7,415 nucleotides of DNA from Fidelibacterota bacterium (lineage in GTDB: Bacteria; Fidelibacterota; UBA8477), in NCBI GenBank assembly GCA_021734045.1, contig JAIPJR010000101.1:1-7415 (forward strand). The letters are read 5' to 3'. Numbering within the stretch: position 1 is the stretch's first letter; each line of letters begins with the position of its first letter. Shown piece after piece: positions 1 through 7,415 of the stretch. The notes beneath the pieces are model-generated. The model did not search any database, was not told the DNA's origin, and was given only the letters and a program-made list of their open reading frames with translations. Made by a program: the position numbers and the translations under genes.

Positions 1-1
1 A

Positions 2-250
2 ACCACCATCCGGTATGACCTGCCGGAAGCAGGCCGGATTCGGGTGGCAGTTTATGATATCCGGGGACGGCTTGTCACAACGCTCACAAATGAAGACAAA
101 CAGCCGGGTTCATATCAAGTGCAATGGCAGGGTAAGGATACATCTGGCCGGATGGTTGGTTCAGGGCTCTATTTCTACACGCTGGAAGCCCTAGCTACCG
201 GAGGTAACCAGACATTTCGTTCCAGCCGTAAGATGCTGCTGATGAAATGA
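2..250 (+). CDS. C-terminal end of a secreted protein with a FlgD-like / type IX sorting domain (5' truncated by window)
   Basis: The reading frame is open from the first complete codon and ends with TGA at 248-250, giving 82 visible residues; the true start lies outside the window. The visible part matches the FlgD Ig-like / T9SS type A sorting domain pattern: TTIRYDLPEAG, then VAVYDIRGRLV, then a turn with PGSYQVQWQGKD, then GLYFYTLEA, and a basic end RKMLLMK. In the FCB group such C-terminal domains are the last 70-90 residues of large, otherwise unrelated exported proteins (peptidases, adhesins, hydrolases), and in lineages with a type IX system they direct passage across the outer membrane. 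The function of the missing body cannot be inferred. The GTG at 44 is only an internal Val codon, not a start. The gene is convergent with the DUF58 operon and followed by repeat-rich DNA. Confidence is high for the domain class and moderate for type IX secretion itself, since no secretion genes are in view. Confidence 0.85.
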   Translation, partial: TTIRYDLPEAGRIRVAVYDIRGRLVTTLTNEDKQPGSYQVQWQGKDTSGRMVGSGLYFYTLEALATGGNQTFRSSRKMLLMK

Positions 251-272
251 ATGTGCGAATTGGCGGATGGGC

Positions 273-324
273 GGATTGAGTCGCTTTGCTCCTCTTACTC
301 CGCTTTGCTCCGTTTGACGGATTG
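273..324 (+). repeat. 52-bp direct repeat, copy 1
   Basis: The first 27 bases (GGATTGAGTCGC through CTTACT) are identical to those of copy 2 at 566-617. Over the full 52 bases I count 5 mismatches, all in an 18-base inner section built on CGCTTTGCTCCG / CGCTCCGCTTCG words; both copies end with CGGATTG. Copy 1 is flanked by more GGCGGATGG/GCGGATT sequence. The same GGATTG word opens and closes the unit, which suggests growth or shuffling by short tandem units. Confidence 0.85.
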
Positions 325-344
325 TCAATTGACGAATAGCTTGT

Positions 345-366
345 CCTCCCCTTGAGATAAGGGAGG
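345..366. other. C-rich/G-rich hairpin downstream of the sorting-domain gene
   Basis: CCTCCC (345-350) pairs with GGGAGG (361-366), and the stem continues through TT/AA after a one-base bulge (C351) to a GAGAT loop. It lies 95 nt after the stop codon at 248-250. No T-tract follows on the plus strand (the next bases are GTTCGACC), so it is a poor intrinsic terminator. It is more likely part of the intergenic repeat set or a 3'-end-stabilising structure. A 10-bp perfect palindrome GTCAATTGAC lies just before it at 324-333. Confidence 0.45.
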
Positions 367-406
367 GTTCGACCTATCGTTGAATTAGCTGGAAAGCGTG
401 GGGTGT

Positions 407-519
407 AACCCCGTCAGGGGTTTTCTATTTTTCACCCGTAATAATTTCAGGAAACCCCTACAGGGTTCATGTGATACACTGGGAAACGCTGCTACAGATA
501 GAAAACACCTCCGGTGTTT
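407..519. repeat. Three-hairpin intergenic element
   Basis: Three small palindromes follow one another at roughly 46-50 bp spacing. AACCCC-GTCA-GGGGTT is at 407-422, AACCC-CTACA-GGGTT at 453-467, and AAACACC-TCC-GGTGTTT at 503-519. The outer two are also linked in inverted orientation: GGGGTTTTCTAT (417-428) is the reverse complement of ATAGAAAACACC (498-509) apart from one base. The element could therefore fold either as three local stem-loops or as one long imperfect hairpin. Each palindrome has the form of a short A/C-rich arm around a G/C centre, as in mobile-like REP/MITE intergenic repeats. No transposase is nearby. Family identity is unknown to me. Confidence 0.6.
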
Positions 520-565
520 CTTGCCGCTTTCGTTTTACAAGAACACCAAATGAAGCCGGATGAGT

Positions 566-617
566 GGATTGAGTCGCTTTGCTCCTCTTACTTCGCTCCG
601 CTTCGTTTGTCGGATTG
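566..617 (+). repeat. 52-bp direct repeat, copy 2
   Basis: This is the second copy of the unit at 273-324, in the same orientation and 241 bp after the end of copy 1 (27 identical leading bases, 5 mismatches over 52). It is followed by further GGAT-containing words (CGGATGTTCGGATAATCGGATG, about 618-640), so the repeat grades into short GGAT-rich sequence. The two copies bracket the C-rich hairpin and the three-hairpin element. Confidence 0.85.
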
Positions 618-770
618 CGGATGTTCGGATAATCGGATGAGCGGGCATCAGTGGAGAGGAGAACTGTCTGTCTCTCCTCGGTACATTCCCTGGACCGGCA
701 CAGAAAGCATCATTCAATCTTAGCAAGCTCTGCATCTTCTATTCACCTCCGAGTAAATCTCAAAGCCGGA

Positions 771-838
771 ATCCGTTCAATCCGTGTCATCCGTGGTAAA
801 AATAATCTTCATCTGTGTTTGTCTGTGTTCATCTGTGG
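771..838 (+). repeat. Degenerate 10-bp-period block (CCGTG / CTGTG words)
   Basis: The first part carries two units, CAATCCGTG (778-786) and TCATCCGTGG (787-796). After a short A-rich spacer come three clean 10-base units: TCATCTGTGT (809-818), TTGTCTGTGT (819-828) and TCATCTGTGG (829-838). I recognise this kind of text from intergenic regions of many environmental bacterial genomes, where CCGTG- and CTGTG-type words recur in noncoding spacers. The recognition is from memory and untested here. A function is not known to me. Confidence 0.65.
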
Positions 839-952
839 CAAAAGTGAGAGAATTCCCAAATCACAAGAACCAAATCTCAAACAAATTCCAACTCGCTAAA
901 TCTTAATTCTAAAAATGGAAATCCAGCCCCCACAAACAATTTAGGTTTTTCA

Positions 953-994
953 CGCTGTGGCCTCGGTCCTTGCTCCAGGTTCACGGTGGTTTCG
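953..994 (+). repeat. Second degenerate repeat block (CTGTGGCCTCGGT type)
   Basis: CGCTGTGGCC, CTCGGTCCTT, GCTCCAGGTT and CACGGTGGTTTCG read as decayed copies of the same approximately 10-base pattern (C-T-X-X-G-T-G-G) seen at 771-838. They end in the GGTGGTTTCG word and then CCGCCCAATCCGC, which resembles the GGATTG/CGGATT words of the 52-bp repeat on the opposite strand. One minus-strand frame is open across it, but it has no start or ribosome-binding site and consists of repeat translation. Confidence 0.4.
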
Positions 995-1032
995 TAATCC
1001 GCCCAATCCGCACCATCGGAGCTAAAAAAATA

Positions 1033-1079
1033 ACCTTTGCAAACTTGGCGTCTTACTCTGCGCCCTTTGCGGTTCAGGT
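1033..1079 (+). repeat. Third degenerate repeat block (TTTGCG / CTCTGCG words)
   Basis: Words CCTTTGCAAAC, TTGGCGTCTTA, CTCTGCGCC and CTTTGCGGTTCAGG recur at about 10-12 base spacing, ending 13 bases before the DUF58 stop codon. This is the same style of low-complexity intergenic block as at 771-838 but with a TTTGCG core. It sits immediately 3' of the operon on its transcribed strand. A run of seven A (1024-1030; T on the minus strand) follows it in the direction of operon transcription, but only a weak TTTGCAAA palindrome precedes that run, so a terminator is not convincing. Confidence 0.45.
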
Positions 1080-1092
1080 CTTAATTCGTTTA

Positions 1093-1989
1093 CTAATGCA
1101 ACCGGCGGCGCTTATTCAGATAAGAGGATAATGCCAGATCCAACGGCTGATCCGTTGTGAGGCGCACATAATCGCTGTTCTGCTCACGGGCACCATCTTT
1201 CAGGGTCTCGCAAAATTGATTCACAGCCTCTCGATAGGCTTTCTGAATATGCCAGGGTTCGGTGGCCAGCATATCACCCGATTCCATGTCATAAAACTTG
1301 GTGTGGGCGTCAAAACTAAAGGCCATTTCCTGGGGATCCAGAATGTGAAACAGTATCACTTCATGATTGTCATGACGAAAGTGTTTTAAACCACCCAGAA
1401 TCTTTTCCGGCTCATCGAACAGGTCGGAAATCACAATGACCAGCCCGCGCCGGTTAATCCGCTCGGCTAAATGATGCAACGAATCACCCACCGCCGTTTC
1501 CGGTCCCGGCTCAATTCCCTCCAGTTGCGACAAAATGGCATTCAGCGTACTGGGTCGCGAGGAAGGTCGCAAGTGCTGGCGGATTTTTGCGTCAAAAAGC
1601 GTCAATCCAACGGCGTCCTGTTGGTGCAGCATGAGATAGGTGAGCGCGGCCGCCAGGTAGCTGGCGTACTGGAGCTTGGTTACACCGGCCGATCCGTAAG
1701 CCATGGAGTTTGATACATCCACCAGCAGGTGCGCCTTTAAGTTGGTCTCTTCTTCAAATTGCTTGATGTAAAACCGGTCGGTTTTACCGTAAAGCTTCCA
1801 GTCCAGGTGCCGCAAATCATCTCCGGGTCCGTAGGCGCGGTGTTCGGCAAATTCCACCGAAAACCCGTGGTAGGGACTTTTGTGCAGCCCCACAATAAAT
1901 CCTTCTACCACCATCCGCGCCCGCAGGTGCATGTTGGCCAGCGTGGCAATGGTTTCCGGTTTCAGGTATTTTCTTTTATCAATTTCCAT
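1093..1989 (-). CDS. DUF58 domain protein with vWA-like fold (MoxR partner)
   Basis: The 298-residue product belongs to the DUF58 family. The family core is seen at residues 53-83 (YGPGDDLRHLDWKLYGKTD then FYIKQFEEETNL). A vWA-like region follows, starting LLVDVSNSM with an intact metal-binding DxSxS (D91, S93, S95), a candidate MIDAS Thr near 165, and the strand VIVISDLFD (D189). There is no signal peptide and no evident membrane segment, so this is the short soluble form; many DUF58 proteins instead carry two N-terminal membrane helices. DUF58 proteins are genomic partners of MoxR ATPases and are thought to act as adaptors or targets in assembly of envelope or enzyme complexes; the exact role here is unknown. 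The ATG at 1987-1989 begins 12 nt after the upstream stop codon. No clear ribosome-binding site precedes it, so translational coupling is likely. It is the last gene of the operon. Confidence 0.9.
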   Translation of the reverse strand: MEIDKRKYLKPETIATLANMHLRARMVVEGFIVGLHKSPYHGFSVEFAEHRAYGPGDDLRHLDWKLYGKTDRFYIKQFEEETNLKAHLLVDVSNSMAYGSAGVTKLQYASYLAAALTYLMLHQQDAVGLTLFDAKIRQHLRPSSRPSTLNAILSQLEGIEPGPETAVGDSLHHLAERINRRGLVIVISDLFDEPEKILGGLKHFRHDNHEVILFHILDPQEMAFSFDAHTKFYDMESGDMLATEPWHIQKAYREAVNQFCETLKDGAREQNSDYVRLTTDQPLDLALSSYLNKRRRLH

Positions 1990-2001
1990 GGATTAACTAC
2001 A

Positions 2002-4920
2002 TCAGAACGGGTTTACCAGCGCCAGCCGGAAATAGGTGTGGTCTTTTAGCAGTGTCTCATTCTGAAAATCTTTGTTGGACCAGAAATCGGCATCACCACC
2101 CACACCGTAGGAGAGAATCACAAAAGCCATGTCACCCACTCCCACATTGGCCTTGAGCTCCAGACCAAAGGTTTGCAATGCTTTTTGAGTATCACCTTCG
2201 GGTGTTGGTGTGAGTAGCTTTCTGACCACACCAACATCACTGAAAAGAGCGCCGGTAAAGTGATTCAGGGTAATACCCAACAAGTTAGCGGGAATCGCCG
2301 GAATGAAGGGAAAACGCAATTCCGTCACCTGGTAGAGTACCTCACGACCATAGTAATTTTCCTGCTGGCCCCGCAGATTGTATGTCTCGTAAGGATATAA
2401 CAAGCCAGCCAACATACCCGACAGTGTGCCGGGTGAATAGTAGAGCGGCATGGTATTGAGCAACCCAATCCGGTCCTGATAAGGCACCGAGCCGGTGTGT
2501 TTTTCCCATTTAGCCCGCACATAGGCCACAAATGGTGTGGGACCAAGCTGCAGATTGGTGAACCCGTCCAACCACAATTTCTGGTAATCCGCATCACCCC
2601 ATAGCTTGGATGAAACCAATTCCGCCCGGGCATTGAATCCGGTACCCGTATAAGGTAGCCAGACCATCCCCTTGTGGGGGCGCTGGGCCTTCCAGCGGTA
2701 ATCCAGTACCAGACTACCTTCCCGCAAACCATCCACCAGGGAGTCTTGTACAATGTCTTTGGAGAAGCCCAGCACCTTGCGGGTGTGGAATTGTAGCGCC
2801 GTACTTAGGAAATGGTTGGAAAACAGGCTTTTCCCCGAATTCATGGGAACAGCCGCCATCACGCCCCCGCCATTGACGGCCTCATAAATACTGCCTTCTG
2901 TGTTTACCCGCTGATTATAGCCAAGATTATACTGAGCATAAACACTCAGGATCGGCCAATAATTCAGGTTGGAGTAAGCGGCTGAGCCCCACAACAAACT
3001 ACCATCCCATTCGATACTGCTGCCGGCGGAGAACACGTGCTTTCCCAACGCATCTGAGCCCACATACAGGCCGGTGAGTCCCTGATCATCAGGCAAAATA
3101 AACCATGTCAGGGGACGCAAGGTTCTTAGGCCCCGATAGGGATGCTGACTCAGGATTTCCGGTGGTTTGGTATAGTCAATCTCGGGGATAACCGGGTCCG
3201 GACTTTTCGTCCGCCAGGCCGACCAGCGGTCACGGATGTGAAATGGTAACGGCTCAATCGAGCGATCAGCAGCGATTGAAACCAACCGCACCGTATCCAC
3301 ATCGGCCAGGGTTGATGTGAGAATGCCCTCGGACTTTGGGATGCGTTGAATCGCGTACACCGCTTCGGCCACATCGGTCATTTGTACCAGGGTGTCTGTC
3401 GAATCCACTGCCACATGATACAGATTGGGCGTTTCATTACGGTAAGATGTAAAAACAATACCGGTCCCGTCACTGGTCCAGACTGGATTCAGATCCTCCG
3501 TATAATCGTTCGTTAGTTTCCGGAAACCGGTGCCGTCAACATTGACCACAGCAATATCGGTAAAGCCGCTGGTATCCTGAATGGCCATGGCAATCCGGGC
3601 ATAATCGGGTGAAAATTGGGGCTGGCGAATCTGAACATCACCGGTGAACCAGGTGACCTTTTTAACCTGACGCTGTTCATCGTTGCTCACCTGGTAGATA
3701 TTGCTGGTTTCACCCACGGGATGAGCCACAAACCAGACCGATTGGGAATCCGGGCCGAAAACCGGATGCAGGGCTCGCATATCTTCCGTCAGCCAGCGTT
3801 TGTGTTTCCCGTCCCGATCCATGATGCGCAGGTCATTGAGCAGGCTGCCGTGTTTGCCACGATGCAGTTCCGACACCACAATCTGATTTCCTGTGGGTGA
3901 CCAGGCGGGATGATTGTTGAATGACCCCACATGAATACGCTTCACGGTTTGATTAGAATCGGTGGATGCCACATACAAACCCTGAAAGTACTGTTTGTCT
4001 GATTGCCGTCCCAGGATAGCGATGGCGCTTGAATCGGGCGCGATACTGATACCAACAACATCTTTGAACCCGGCGAGCTTAAAGCTCTCACCAACTTCAT
4101 CCACGCCCTCTTTCTGACCCTTCAGGGTGTAATAATAGGTGTCCATTACCCGGCGCCATTCTTCGTCAAATTCTTTTACCGGTTTCCCCACGGCTTCTTC
4201 AAAGGCTTTGTCAAAGTCATACCAAATAGGATATTTCTGATCCTCTTCGTCCAGGTAGATGCGGTGCCTCCCAATCTTCACCAGCGTGGAATCACCATAT
4301 TTCCAAGCCAGATACAGCACCTTGGCGTATCCCATATTATGGGCTTCTAATCTGTGGAGAATGTTGTTATAACTGTGAATTTTTAAGGCATTATCAGCGC
4401 GTCCCACCCGCCAGATTTCCGTGTTGTACTCGGCCATGCCCTCCAACCACCAACCCGGCACAGTCAGTTGGCTCCACAAACCAGCCCAGGTTTCGTGAGC
4501 ATGAAATTGCGCGACATGCTGGAATTCATGAGCCAGCACCAGCCTAAGCCATTTTTCCGAACCGCCGAAATGTCCCGCCACGTCATTCTGACTGACCCAG
4601 ATGAATATCTGATCCGATGGCATGGCAAAGCCATTCATCACCTCATCTTCCGTGGTGAGTGTCACATCCGTTTTTCCCCACGGCTCCACCTGAATCTGTT
4701 CCAGGATAACCGGATACACCTGCTCGGCGATTTGAGCAGCTTTCAGTGCAATGCTTTCAATACCGTTGTGATAATGGATGTTGAAATGCTCGGTTTCCAG
4801 CGTGTACCAGGTCAGCTCGGGATGGGTGCGTTGGTTCCAGGCAAAGAAGCCCGCCTGGCCTATCAGACTTGAAATAGTTAGACTGAAAATAAGTAAGCGG
4901 ATTAAGAAAGTTGCGCGCAT
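2002..4920 (-). CDS. Outer-membrane fusion: gluzincin-like metallopeptidase, TolB-like propeller, BamA-type barrel
   Basis: Residues are numbered from the ATG at 4920 (972 aa). Residues 1-22 form a signal peptide (basic MRATFLIR, then LLIFSLTISSLIGQA). Residues about 35-265 are peptidase-like: HEFQH (131-135) fits the zinc motif HExxH, and WWLEGMAEY (157-165) supplies the likely third ligand E160, as in MA-clan peptidases. Residues about 285-560 hold at least five WD40-like/PD40 blades of TolB type: SIAPDSS, PAWSPTGNQI, PVFGPDSQSV, PQFSPDYARI and PVWTSDGTGI. From about 585 to the end lies a D15/BamA-like beta-barrel with YNLRGQQ (846-852), TELRFPF (866-872) and a terminal Phe. The protein is therefore predicted to be outer-membrane anchored, with the first two domains probably periplasmic. 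The substrate is unknown. An in-frame TTG at 4926 would add two residues, but ATG 4920 lies 10 nt after AGGA and is preferred. The frame is intact. Confidence 0.85.
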   Translation of the reverse strand: MRATFLIRLLIFSLTISSLIGQAGFFAWNQRTHPELTWYTLETEHFNIHYHNGIESIALKAAQIAEQVYPVILEQIQVEPWGKTDVTLTTEDEVMNGFAMPSDQIFIWVSQNDVAGHFGGSEKWLRLVLAHEFQHVAQFHAHETWAGLWSQLTVPGWWLEGMAEYNTEIWRVGRADNALKIHSYNNILHRLEAHNMGYAKVLYLAWKYGDSTLVKIGRHRIYLDEEDQKYPIWYDFDKAFEEAVGKPVKEFDEEWRRVMDTYYYTLKGQKEGVDEVGESFKLAGFKDVVGISIAPDSSAIAILGRQSDKQYFQGLYVASTDSNQTVKRIHVGSFNNHPAWSPTGNQIVVSELHRGKHGSLLNDLRIMDRDGKHKRWLTEDMRALHPVFGPDSQSVWFVAHPVGETSNIYQVSNDEQRQVKKVTWFTGDVQIRQPQFSPDYARIAMAIQDTSGFTDIAVVNVDGTGFRKLTNDYTEDLNPVWTSDGTGIVFTSYRNETPNLYHVAVDSTDTLVQMTDVAEAVYAIQRIPKSEGILTSTLADVDTVRLVSIAADRSIEPLPFHIRDRWSAWRTKSPDPVIPEIDYTKPPEILSQHPYRGLRTLRPLTWFILPDDQGLTGLYVGSDALGKHVFSAGSSIEWDGSLLWGSAAYSNLNYWPILSVYAQYNLGYNQRVNTEGSIYEAVNGGGVMAAVPMNSGKSLFSNHFLSTALQFHTRKVLGFSKDIVQDSLVDGLREGSLVLDYRWKAQRPHKGMVWLPYTGTGFNARAELVSSKLWGDADYQKLWLDGFTNLQLGPTPFVAYVRAKWEKHTGSVPYQDRIGLLNTMPLYYSPGTLSGMLAGLLYPYETYNLRGQQENYYGREVLYQVTELRFPFIPAIPANLLGITLNHFTGALFSDVGVVRKLLTPTPEGDTQKALQTFGLELKANVGVGDMAFVILSYGVGGDADFWSNKDFQNETLLKDHTYFRLALVNPF

Positions 4921-4980
4921 AAACAAAATATCCTGTTCAATTCAATGAATGGCGGTTCAAAGGTGGTTGGCCCTCATCGA

Positions 4981-5964
4981 TCAGTCTGTTTCCAGTAGTT
5001 TTGTCACAATCTCATCGGTGCTCACACCATCTGCCTCCGCGTTGAAGTTGGTGAGAACGCGATGTCGCAGGACCGGCAGGGCAACCGATATTATATCGTC
5101 AATTGAAGGTGTGGGATTGCCTTTAAGCGCAGCCATTGTCTTAGCGCCTAACACCAGGTATTGGGATGCCCGGGGACCGGCGCCCCACGCCACCCATTTC
5201 TTGATAAAATCCGGTGCATTGGGCGCGGCAGGCCGGGTTCTGGTTACCAGATCCACCGCAAAAGCAATCACATTATCCGCTACCGGAATCTGGCGGATCA
5301 ATTGCTGATAACCGCGGATTTCATCCCGGGTCAATACTTTCTGCAACGATACTTCCGCCGCTGAGGTCGTAGATTGGACAATTTCTTTTTCCTCATCCAC
5401 TGTGGGATATTCCACCTTCAGATTTAACATGAAGCGATCCAGTTGCGCTTCCGGTAAGGGGTAGGTCCCTTCCTGTTCGATGGGATTCTGCGTCGCCAAG
5501 ACGAAAAAAGGTTCGTCCAGCGTATAGGTCTGGCCACTGGCAGTAACCCGGTGTTCCTGCATGGCTTCCAGCAGTGCAGCCTGGGTTTTGGGTGGTGTCC
5601 GGTTGATTTCGTCCGCCAGCACGATATTGGCAAAAACCGGCCCCTGCACAAACCGGAACGCCCGCTTGCCCGTACTGTGGTCCTCTTCAATAATTTCCGT
5701 CCCGGTAATGTCAGAGGGCATCAGGTCGGGAGTGAACTGAATCCGGTTGAATTTCAAATCCATAATTTCCGAGAGACTTTTAATCAACAGCGTTTTCGCC
5801 AGACCCGGTACACCCACCAGGAGGGCATGTCCCTGCGCCAGCATGGCCACAAAAAGCTGCTCAATGATTTGATTCTGGCCGATAATGGCCTTGCTGATTT
5901 CCGTTTTCAGGGCGGTATAGCTTTTATGTAATGCTTCCAGGCGTTCCAGATCGGAATGACTCAC
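4981..5964 (-). CDS. MoxR-family AAA+ ATPase
   Basis: The 327-residue protein is a complete MoxR-type AAA+ ATPase, the usual length for the family. Visible motifs are Walker A GVPGLAKT (51-58), FTPDLMPSDITG (77-88), the FVQGPVFANIVLADEINR stretch with Walker B acidic pair D118/E119, sensor 1 ATQNPIEQEGTYPLPEAQ (N160), arginine finger in LDRF (R177) and sensor 2 in GAGPRAS (R265). The family remodels or activates protein complexes using ATP, usually with DUF58/vWA partners, and one such partner ends this operon. I chose the GTG at 5964 because AAAGGAGA ends 4 nt before it. A longer frame from GTG 6003 adds 13 hydrophobic/charged residues without a ribosome-binding site. The stop codon lies 60 nt before the next gene, on the same strand. 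A weak -10-like TATTAT (5988-5993) has no good -35. The symbol moxR is used loosely for this family, so none is given. Confidence 0.95.
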   Translation of the reverse strand: MSHSDLERLEALHKSYTALKTEISKAIIGQNQIIEQLFVAMLAQGHALLVGVPGLAKTLLIKSLSEIMDLKFNRIQFTPDLMPSDITGTEIIEEDHSTGKRAFRFVQGPVFANIVLADEINRTPPKTQAALLEAMQEHRVTASGQTYTLDEPFFVLATQNPIEQEGTYPLPEAQLDRFMLNLKVEYPTVDEEKEIVQSTTSAAEVSLQKVLTRDEIRGYQQLIRQIPVADNVIAFAVDLVTRTRPAAPNAPDFIKKWVAWGAGPRASQYLVLGAKTMAALKGNPTPSIDDIISVALPVLRHRVLTNFNAEADGVSTDEIVTKLLETD

Positions 5965-5968
5965 AATT

Positions 5969-5976
5969 TCTCCTTT
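5969..5976 (-). promoter_or_regulatory. Strong ribosome-binding site that sets the MoxR start
   Basis: On the minus strand this reads AAAGGAGA, close to a perfect anti-Shine-Dalgarno match, placed 4 nt before GTG 5964. It supports the shorter 327-residue MoxR product over the 340-residue reading from GTG 6003. Confidence 0.8.
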
Positions 5977-6091
5977 ATCGACAATAAATAATATGTTTGC
6001 CACATGTATTGAATAAGCATCGGGCTGAAAAATAAACGCGGCGGTGTGGTTTGTTTAGTTAAAATTTCGTCCCAAACTGCGTCATTTAGCG

Positions 6092-6178
6092 ACGGGTGTC
6101 GCCCGTGTTTTCCCGGCGTGGGAGGGATTGGACGTAACAATCCCCCTGATCTGCGAAGTTGCCTTCGGGATAGGGGGA
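6092..6178. other. Hairpin cluster between rpmA and the MoxR gene
   Basis: Three stems lie in the 249-bp spacer. Stem 1 is ACGGG/CCCGT at 6092-6106. Stem 2 pairs GGGATTG (6124-6130) with CAATCCC (6138-6144). Stem 3 pairs TCCCCCT (6141-6147) with AGGGGGA (6172-6178) and encloses CGAAG/CTTCG (6154-6167), whose loop reads GCAA on the minus strand, a GNRA tetraloop. Stems 2 and 3 share bases 6141-6144 and cannot form together. None is followed by a T-tract on the minus strand, so a classical terminator is not shown. A T-run on the minus strand (6197-6202) soon after the rpmA stop has no good stem before it, and the palindrome TTAATTAATTAA lies beside it. Confidence 0.5.
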
Positions 6179-6213
6179 GCGTATTAATTAATTAAAAAAC
6201 GGTCGTCAGAGAA

Positions 6214-6474
6214 CTAAGCGTCAGCTGGATAGACACTAATCTGCTTGCGGGATTTGTCTTTGCGTTCGAAAGCGACAACGCCGTCAATCTTGGCGAAGAG
6301 TGTGTCATCACCGCCTTTGCCCACATTTGTACCCGGATGGTAGTGGGTGCCGCGCTGGCGGACAAGAATGCTGCCGGCTGTCACAAACTGACCGCCGAAC
6401 TCTTTCACGCCCAGGCGCTTGGAATGGCTTTCGCGTCCGTTCTTAGAGCTACCAACACCTTTTTTATGTGCCAT
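6214..6474 (-). CDS. rpmA: 50S ribosomal protein L27 (bL27)
   Basis: The 86-residue protein is a full-length bL27: [14 protein letters not shown] at the N-terminus, then [12 protein letters not shown]-type core (here [19 protein letters not shown]), [16 protein letters not shown] and a C-terminal [10 protein letters not shown]. bL27 lies near the peptidyl-transferase centre, its N-terminal tail reaching toward the tRNA ends. The N-terminus has no Firmicutes-style cleavable extension. The ATG follows the rplU stop codon by 3 nt, and its ribosome-binding site AGGAG lies inside the last rplU codons (8 nt before the ATG), so the two genes are translationally linked. obgE, which often follows rpmA, is not present here; a hairpin-rich spacer and the MoxR operon follow instead. 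Confidence 0.97.
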
Positions 6475-6477
6475 GGA

Positions 6478-7005
6478 TTATTCTCCTGTCTCGTCTTTTT
6501 TGGATGCCTTGGGGGCTGCCGGTTTCTTGGCAGCGGGCTTTTTAGCTGCGGTTGTTTTCTTGGGGGCAGCTTTTTTTGCTTCAGTCTTAGGCTTGGCGGC
6601 TGTTTTGGTTTTGGTCGCCGGCTTTGGTTTAGCGGCAGCTTTTTCAGCTTCAGCCTTTTTCGGCTCGGCAGCCTTCTTGGGTTTGGGTGCTTGACCCGGT
6701 TTCAGCTCTGCGACCTTAATCGTGGTAAATCCCTGACGATGTCCTCGTTTCCGCTGGTACCCCTTACGGCGCTTTTTCTTAAAGACAATGATTTTGCGGT
6801 CTTTACCGTGTTCCACCACGGTGGCATCCACCTGGACATCATCCAGTACCGGGGTACCGACTTTAAAATCTTTACCGTCTGAAAAGGCCAGTACGCGCTC
6901 GACCTCCACCGGTTTACCCGGCTCAATGTCGAGTGTCGGAACGTTCAGGACCATACCTGGTTTAACCTTGAACTGTTTCCCTGCTATCTCAACGATGGCG
7001 TACAT
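6478..7005 (-). CDS. rplU: 50S ribosomal protein L21 (bL21) with a Lys/Ala/Pro-rich C-terminal tail
   Basis: Residues 1-102 are a canonical bL21: MYAIVEIAGKQFKV at the start and the 23S rRNA-binding basic stretch IVFKKKRRKGYQRKRGHRQ followed by GFTTIKV (residues 73-98). bL21 normally ends near residue 103. Here a 73-residue tail follows (103-175) with about 23 Lys and 21 Ala plus many Pro and Thr, in PKKA/AAKP-like units, ending in the acidic DETGE. The tail is low-complexity, strongly basic and probably disordered, resembling histone H1 or AlgP-type tails; it may contact rRNA or other nucleic acid. The start ATG at 7005 has GAGGAG 5 nt upstream. A sigma70-like promoter lies 36 nt upstream of the start codon (7041-7069). 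The gene is read through to rpmA with a 3-nt gap. The tail is in frame and the rpmA ribosome-binding site lies at its end, so it is not a sequencing frameshift. Confidence 0.96.
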   Translation of the reverse strand: MYAIVEIAGKQFKVKPGMVLNVPTLDIEPGKPVEVERVLAFSDGKDFKVGTPVLDDVQVDATVVEHGKDRKIIVFKKKRRKGYQRKRGHRQGFTTIKVAELKPGQAPKPKKAAEPKKAEAEKAAAKPKPATKTKTAAKPKTEAKKAAPKKTTAAKKPAAKKPAAPKASKKDETGE

Positions 7006-7010
7006 TCATT

Positions 7011-7016
7011 CTCCTC
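7011..7016 (-). promoter_or_regulatory. Ribosome-binding site of rplU
   Basis: GAGGAG on the minus strand, 5 nt before ATG 7005. It sits inside a tiny in-frame-independent reading ATG-AGA-GGA-GAA-TGA (7006-7020) whose stop codon directly abuts the rplU start; that mini-ORF has no ribosome-binding site of its own and is probably incidental. Confidence 0.75.
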
Positions 7017-7040
7017 TCATCATTTCAATCAAAGCGCGCC

Positions 7041-7069
7041 AATATAGACGGCCAGATATGGGCTGTCAA
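7041..7069 (-). promoter_or_regulatory. Near-consensus sigma70-type promoter for rplU-rpmA
   Basis: On the minus strand the -35 box TTGACA (7064-7069) is a perfect match and the -10 box TATATT (7041-7046) matches five of six positions, with a 17-bp spacer. Transcription would begin around 7033-7035, leaving a leader of about 29 nt before the rplU ATG at 7005. No FCB-specific TAnnTTTG -7 element was seen here. Strong promoter strength fits ribosomal protein genes. Confidence 0.8.
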
Positions 7070-7131
7070 CCGAAATACACCGGTATTGAACCTGCTTTTT
7101 CCTGCTATTGAATGCGGTTTCAGGAACGCCA

Positions 7132-7410
7132 TTACCGGCGAGAGTCGCTACCCAATAGGTGAATCTGGTAGCGGGGAAAAATTAATTCATCCAAACGATC
7201 CAGAACAGGCTGGAGCGCCTGCCACTCCGGAGGTAATTCAAGCCACCAGCTATAGTGTCTTTCGATCGGCGGGGAGGATAATGAATACTTCAGATTGTAG
7301 ATAACGCCATCTAAACCAATTTGCACCGTAGTCTTGGGTGGCAAATCCAGGAAGTGTAGACAGTGCGAGAGTAGCTCCAAATCTGAAGTATTCATAGTGG
7401 CATGCTGCAT
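7132..7410 (-). CDS. Unrecognised small protein (start uncertain, may extend past the window)
   Basis: The open frame gives 92 residues from ATG 7410, or 87 from the second Met at 7395; the frame remains open to the window edge, so a longer protein is possible. I do not recognise it. It is rich in Leu, Pro and Trp (LPPKTTVQIGLDGVIYN, then SWWLELPPEWQALQPVLDRLD) with a short basic end GSDSRR. There is no signal peptide, membrane helix or catalytic motif. No clear ribosome-binding site precedes either Met. The composition reads like a real soluble protein rather than a shadow. It is on the same strand as rplU and ends 62 bp before that gene's promoter. A 16-bp inverted repeat inside it involves the codons of M6-D10 and of N39-S43 (see the repeat entry), and may instead mean the coding frame is not the main feature here. 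Confidence 0.45.
   Translation of the reverse strand: MQHATMNTSDLELLSHCLHFLDLPPKTTVQIGLDGVIYNLKYSLSSPPIERHYSWWLELPPEWQALQPVLDRLDELIFPRYQIHLLGSDSRR
7281..7395. repeat. Perfect 16-bp inverted repeat with 83-bp spacer
   Basis: ATGAATACTTCAGATT at 7281-7296 is the exact reverse complement of AATCTGAAGTATTCAT at 7380-7395. The flanking bases do not continue the match. A match this long so close together is unlikely by chance in a window of this size. On the minus strand the right arm begins with the Met codon at 7395. On the plus strand the left arm also begins with ATG, preceded by GGGGAGGATA, a good ribosome-binding-like stretch. No terminal target-site duplication is evident. Confidence 0.8.
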
Positions 7411-7415
7411 GGTGC

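Follow-up and report, generated by a model that had tools for sequence, protein, structure and literature searches.

A 972-amino-acid reading frame in a Fidelibacterota genome raises the question of whether a zinc peptidase, a TolB-like propeller and an Omp85-type barrel are joined in one chain, and of what such a protein might do. The window, i.e. the whole stretch of DNA analyzed, comprises positions 1-7,415 (7,415 nucleotides) of contig JAIPJR010000101.1 from Fidelibacterota bacterium (GCA_021734045.1).

Gene structure and domain organization

The reading frame is uninterrupted on the minus strand, with the ATG at 4920 and the stop codon ending at 2002, and is thus intact at the coordinates of the first-pass annotation. 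The features of the gene are as follows.

2002..4920, minus strand: whole gene (signal peptide, zinc peptidase, propeller, Omp85 barrel); 972 aa, open frame
4855..4920, minus strand: signal peptide, approximately residues 1-22; basic start and hydrophobic core, read by eye
4087..4833, minus strand: gluzincin-type peptidase domain, residues 30-278; AF2 model and fold matches
4516..4530, minus strand: HEFQH, residues 131-135 (H131, E132, H135); invariant in 20 aligned homologues
4429..4449, minus strand: WLEGMAE, residues 158-164, with E160 as presumed third zinc ligand; E160, G161 and A163 invariant in 20 homologues
3253..4095, minus strand: TolB-like beta-propeller, approximately residues 276-556, about six blades; TIGR02800, PD40, TolB fold
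2005..3117, minus strand: 16-strand Omp85/BamA-type barrel, residues 602-972; AF2 strands, Sam50/BamA fold, motifs

Homologues matched the protein over its full length, the nearest named relatives being Neomarinimicrobiota MAGs with 89% and 72% identity, and a full-length AF2 model (23 sequences) had a mean pLDDT of 82 and a pTM of 0.80. The signal-peptide-like segment, inspected by eye, contained no lipobox Cys. Structure prediction and fold search supported the earlier proposal that protease, propeller and barrel occupy one chain, and the three-domain fusion is real but not unique. Based upon models and motifs, the protein appears to belong in the outer membrane and to be of the WD40-Omp85 kind, with a probably active zinc metallopeptidase of gluzincin fold in its N-terminal extension. 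This anatomy is well supported, and the function that we infer from it is considered below.

Zinc-peptidase domain

Residues 30-278 were modeled separately by AF2 (pLDDT 84), and the model together with the fold search yielded a gluzincin fold, in agreement with the zinc-peptidase-like domain first proposed for this region. The best fold match was lugdulysin (M30, a staphylococcal zinc peptidase; Z 15.3), followed by M1 aminopeptidases and M9 collagenases (Z 13-14), which aligned over almost the whole domain. Entries of M30, M1 and M9 filled the list of fold matches, with identities of approximately 8-16% in the fold alignments. The TFIID chain 7edx_B, which we take to be TAF2, an inactive M1-fold subunit, was also among the matches.

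H131, E132, H135 and E160 were invariant in all 20 aligned homologues, down to approximately 19% identity, bearing out the suggestion that the active site is intact. W157 lies directly upstream of WLEGMAE, making E160 the glutamate of WWLEG. In Pfam profile searches, the 972-amino-acid protein had no match to PF13485, and its HExxH region matched M48 and DUF2268 below threshold in both cases. Assignment to M48, the BepA family, was rejected (PF01435, 16.6 bits versus a cut-off of 20.3), and a profile match of the N-terminal domain to a designed helix-bundle protein (E 7e-7) was dismissed, the short HExxH helix being taken to resemble that protein by chance. In an HMM alignment with puromycin-sensitive aminopeptidase the HExxH was matched and the glutamate was not, so that this alignment is no proof of the third ligand. 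Fold, HExxH and downstream Glu were all found, and on these predicted features the protein would belong with the gluzincin zinc peptidases (Peptidase MA clan). The M30 (lugdulysin), M1 and M9 families of this clan likewise combine the gluzincin fold with HExxH and the EG glutamate; unlike the 972-amino-acid protein, they have no membrane-barrel anchor. The N-terminal domain would accordingly be expected to bind zinc and to be proteolytic.

The peptidase was 65-67% identical to order-level relatives (L008-L014), the propeller 46-51% and the barrel 34-42%, and dN/dS against the 89% orthologue was 0.042, 0.091 and 0.060, respectively, indicating purifying selection. The peptidase is the best conserved of the three domains, which, together with the invariant active site, argues that catalysis has been kept. 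Chance is excluded by the per-domain dN/dS of 0.04-0.09 and by the invariance of the zinc residues in 20 homologues.

TolB-like propeller

The propeller matched TIGR02800 (NCBIfam) with an E of 5.6e-26, at 91 bits versus an equivalog cut-off of 343. PD40 was the only Pfam family above cut-off in the 972-amino-acid protein, with one repeat. Approximately residues 275-530 superimposed on the TolB fold (Z ~25, 2.5 A over ~240 residues), and AF2 and the fold search gave about six blades, confirming the TolB-like propeller for which at least five had been proposed. This six-bladed fold is held in common with TolB of the Tol-Pal system; TolB_N and an equivalog-level TIGR02800 score are traits of TolB and not of this protein. 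Classification as TolB was therefore rejected, since there was no TolB_N match and the TIGR02800 score was far below the equivalog cut-off. A domain search of its own genome, which is 92% complete, did not find TolB_N, and with no classical TolB found there a Tol-Pal link is unsupported. The genome nonetheless encodes three proteins with this TolB-like propeller architecture.

The propeller also matched S9 peptidases and tricorn protease, both by profile and by fold. Together with the M1 aminopeptidase matches of the N-terminal domain, this is consistent with peptide scavenging, in which peptides would be admitted or held by the barrel, gated by the propeller in the manner of tricorn and S9 peptidases, and trimmed for uptake by the zinc peptidase. 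Such a role is unlikely, because Omp85 barrels are generally plugged and serve in protein handling, not as peptide channels. Furthermore, no recognized transporter gene was conserved adjacent to the gene across the compared families, where neighbors were clustered and partly annotated.

Omp85 barrel

AF2 placed 16 long strands at residues 602-967, so that the C-terminal third closes as a 16-strand barrel, as anticipated for approximately residues 585-972, and the last residue of the chain is Phe. Comparison of residues 602-971 with Sam50 and BamA gave Z of 20-22. The longest barrel loop, between strands 11 and 12 (residues 811-855), carries NLRGQ, the RG motif of Omp85 L6 at its expected place, motifs being assigned here from established knowledge of BamA. 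The L6 motif is RG or KG in every full-length homologue except one, and the ELRFP and GALFxDxG motifs of the barrel are conserved as well. PF01103 had no Pfam match in the 972-amino-acid protein, and the Omp85 assignment is therefore made from fold and motifs. No POTRA pattern was present in the predicted secondary structure of the 45-residue linker between propeller and barrel. A separate BamA with five POTRA domains is encoded in the same genome, and the 972-amino-acid protein is therefore an additional Omp85 and not the core of the BAM complex.

Gene neighborhood

The gene lies between the following two genes, which the first-pass annotation did not mention.

4981..6003, minus strand: MoxR AAA+ ATPase (AAA_3), upstream gene; PF07726, E 2.3e-64
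1093..1989, minus strand: DUF58 / vWA protein, downstream gene, gap of about 12 bases; PF01882, E 2.4e-44

Within the taxonomic order of the window, all relatives with enough contig on that side have moxR immediately upstream, and DUF58 follows downstream wherever the contig extends to it, with two loci containing an extra ORF in or after the stretch. In other families the three-domain gene is located elsewhere and its neighbors vary, with no pointer to outer-membrane assembly. Furthermore, moxR and DUF58 adjoin without the three-domain gene in 8/8 outgroup genomes from other families (L100-L107), once with a small ORF between them and once with DUF58 split into two frames. On the most economical reading, an existing moxR-DUF58 pair received the gene between its members in the ancestor of the window's order. 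The spacing makes co-transcription with moxR and DUF58 likely, and a partnership with their products may exist. A general functional link to MoxR and DUF58 was rejected, since outside the order the gene is found elsewhere and the pair persists without it.

Other features were observed in the window. A 61-base intergenic repeat occurs at 264-324 and 557-617 in copies 89% identical, and is dispersed in the genome with 15 matches, including a near-tandem run on contig C60 in which the copies are spaced by about 63 bases. The end of a gene lies at 2-250 on the plus strand, its last 82 amino acids matching FlgD_ig as well as, though weakly, tail domains of type IX secretion. Ribosomal protein L21 is encoded at 6478-7005 on the minus strand with a Lys/Ala/Pro-rich C-terminal extension of about 75 residues, the PF00829 match being limited to the first 100 residues.

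Paralogues and distribution

A paralogue of 1032 amino acids was found in the same genome (contig C113), with 21% identity in alignment and with PF13485, PF07676 (PD40) and PF01103 all above cut-off. The three-domain reading is therefore not derived from structure prediction alone. With respect to the three profiles put forward in the first-pass annotation, the 972-amino-acid protein itself bore out PF07676 and failed to match PF13485 and PF01103, all three being recovered in the paralogue.

Of 199 sampled genomes of the phylum (Marinimicrobia, also named Neomarinimicrobiota or Fidelibacterota), 184 contained a relative at an E of 1e-5 or better, a threshold at which weak matches may be propeller-only proteins or paralogues. 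Relatives at 1e-40 were encoded by 57 of 99 genomes in the phylum to which a Chlorobiaceae MAG belongs, and relatives at 1e-60 by 15 of 143 genomes (starting genome counted) in the class that includes a Gammaproteobacteria MAG. The HExxH and W..EG.A motifs were retained in all eight relatives examined outside the window's own genome set, and two outside homologues (L123 and L125) had PF01103 and PD40 above cut-off, one of them PF13485 as well. At least three large groups of bacteria contain the three-domain arrangement.

A PorV-like gene lies upstream of a second paralogue of 1071 amino acids (L027:5544-8756), and the protein encoded immediately before the paralogue has a Por_Secre_tail match just below cut-off. 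These neighbors hint at a type IX secretion context for that paralogue.

Comparison with known Omp85 proteins

The first-pass annotation held that TolB propellers and BamA barrels normally belong to separate proteins. This does not stand, as the fusion of a TolB-type propeller to an Omp85 barrel was described in 2014 as the WD40-Omp85 subfamily by Heinz and Lithgow (PMC4104836). As in the 972-amino-acid protein, the propeller there directly precedes the barrel with no POTRA, and the main text of that study does not include an N-terminal zinc peptidase; published WD40-Omp85 members may already carry one. The "Metallo" Omp85 subfamily of the same study was rejected as a counterpart, being defined by PF00149 and not by an HExxH peptidase. 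In the literature searched, which took in the main text of PMC4104836, there was no paper describing the three-part peptidase-propeller-Omp85 architecture and no experiment on any member of the three-domain family. The literature acknowledges that Omp85 proteins bearing enzyme or propeller domains are uncharacterized.

Heinz and Lithgow proposed a BamA-BamB-like fusion for WD40-Omp85 (PMC4104836). By extension, the protein could be a non-catalytic scaffold for barrel assembly, BamA and BamB in one chain, with a peptidase fold that only binds, as in TAF2; the presence of the TFIID chain among the N-terminal fold matches is consistent with this. Such a scaffold is quite improbable given that the four catalytic positions are invariant at such low identity and that the peptidase is the most conserved domain.

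An enzyme domain and an Omp85 barrel are also combined in one chain in PlpD, a patatin-Omp85 protein whose enzyme domain is exclusively periplasmic (PMC11116518). PlpD differs from the 972-amino-acid protein in that its enzyme is of lipase type, POTRA is present and there is no propeller (PMC11116518). The order of signal peptide, enzyme and Omp85 barrel is that of the first PlpD model, and with lugdulysin, a staphylococcal enzyme, as best N-terminal match, a type Vd-like secretion could be envisaged in which the barrel displays its own peptidase and propeller on the cell surface as a surface protease. This is decidedly doubtful, since PlpD itself keeps its enzyme domain in the periplasm (PMC11116518) and the segment joining propeller to barrel shows no POTRA.

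BepA (YfgC), BamB and BamA supply comparable parts, a zinc HExxH peptidase, a propeller and a barrel, each on a protein of its own. LptD is either helped to assemble or degraded by BepA, a periplasmic zinc peptidase that probably works on the BAM complex (PMC8423444). BepA belongs to M48 and has TPR repeats, whereas the present protein is one chain and below the M48 cut-off.

Proposed function

The most economical model, because it combines the location of PlpD, the activity of BepA and the BamA-BamB likeness of WD40-Omp85, is that of a periplasm-facing, outer-membrane-anchored metallopeptidase acting in outer-membrane protein quality control or maturation, a role that these analogies make plausible and that we adopt tentatively. 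The chain would be exported by Sec and its 16-strand barrel inserted by BAM. With an even number of strands both ends of the chain would face the periplasm, and the peptidase and propeller would hang beneath, at the usual position of POTRA domains. By analogy with the partner binding of BamB and TolB propellers, the propeller would probably position or select client chains that are unfolded. The peptidase might cut these putative clients close to the barrel, much as BepA acts at BAM. Outer-membrane or exported proteins would in this way undergo quality control or maturation. Against this model, an M48 peptidase with an SH3 domain in the same genome could do such a job. The "self-contained quality-control or secretion device" of the first-pass annotation was a guess, and the periplasmic enzyme domain of PlpD argues for a periplasmic role over secretion.

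A further, rather improbable extension of the periplasmic quality-control model is a one-chain outer-membrane triage machine, in which clients at the barrel would be read by the propeller and cut by the zinc peptidase, possibly with cytoplasmic MoxR and DUF58 partners. If true, the work of BamA, BamB and BepA would be done within one protein. Marinimicrobia and the phylum to which a Chlorobiaceae MAG belongs commonly carry the three-domain family, which also occurs in some Gammaproteobacteria. Because the family keeps its full protease active site, it is of interest whether a protease tethered to an Omp85 scaffold is functional and which targets it would cut.
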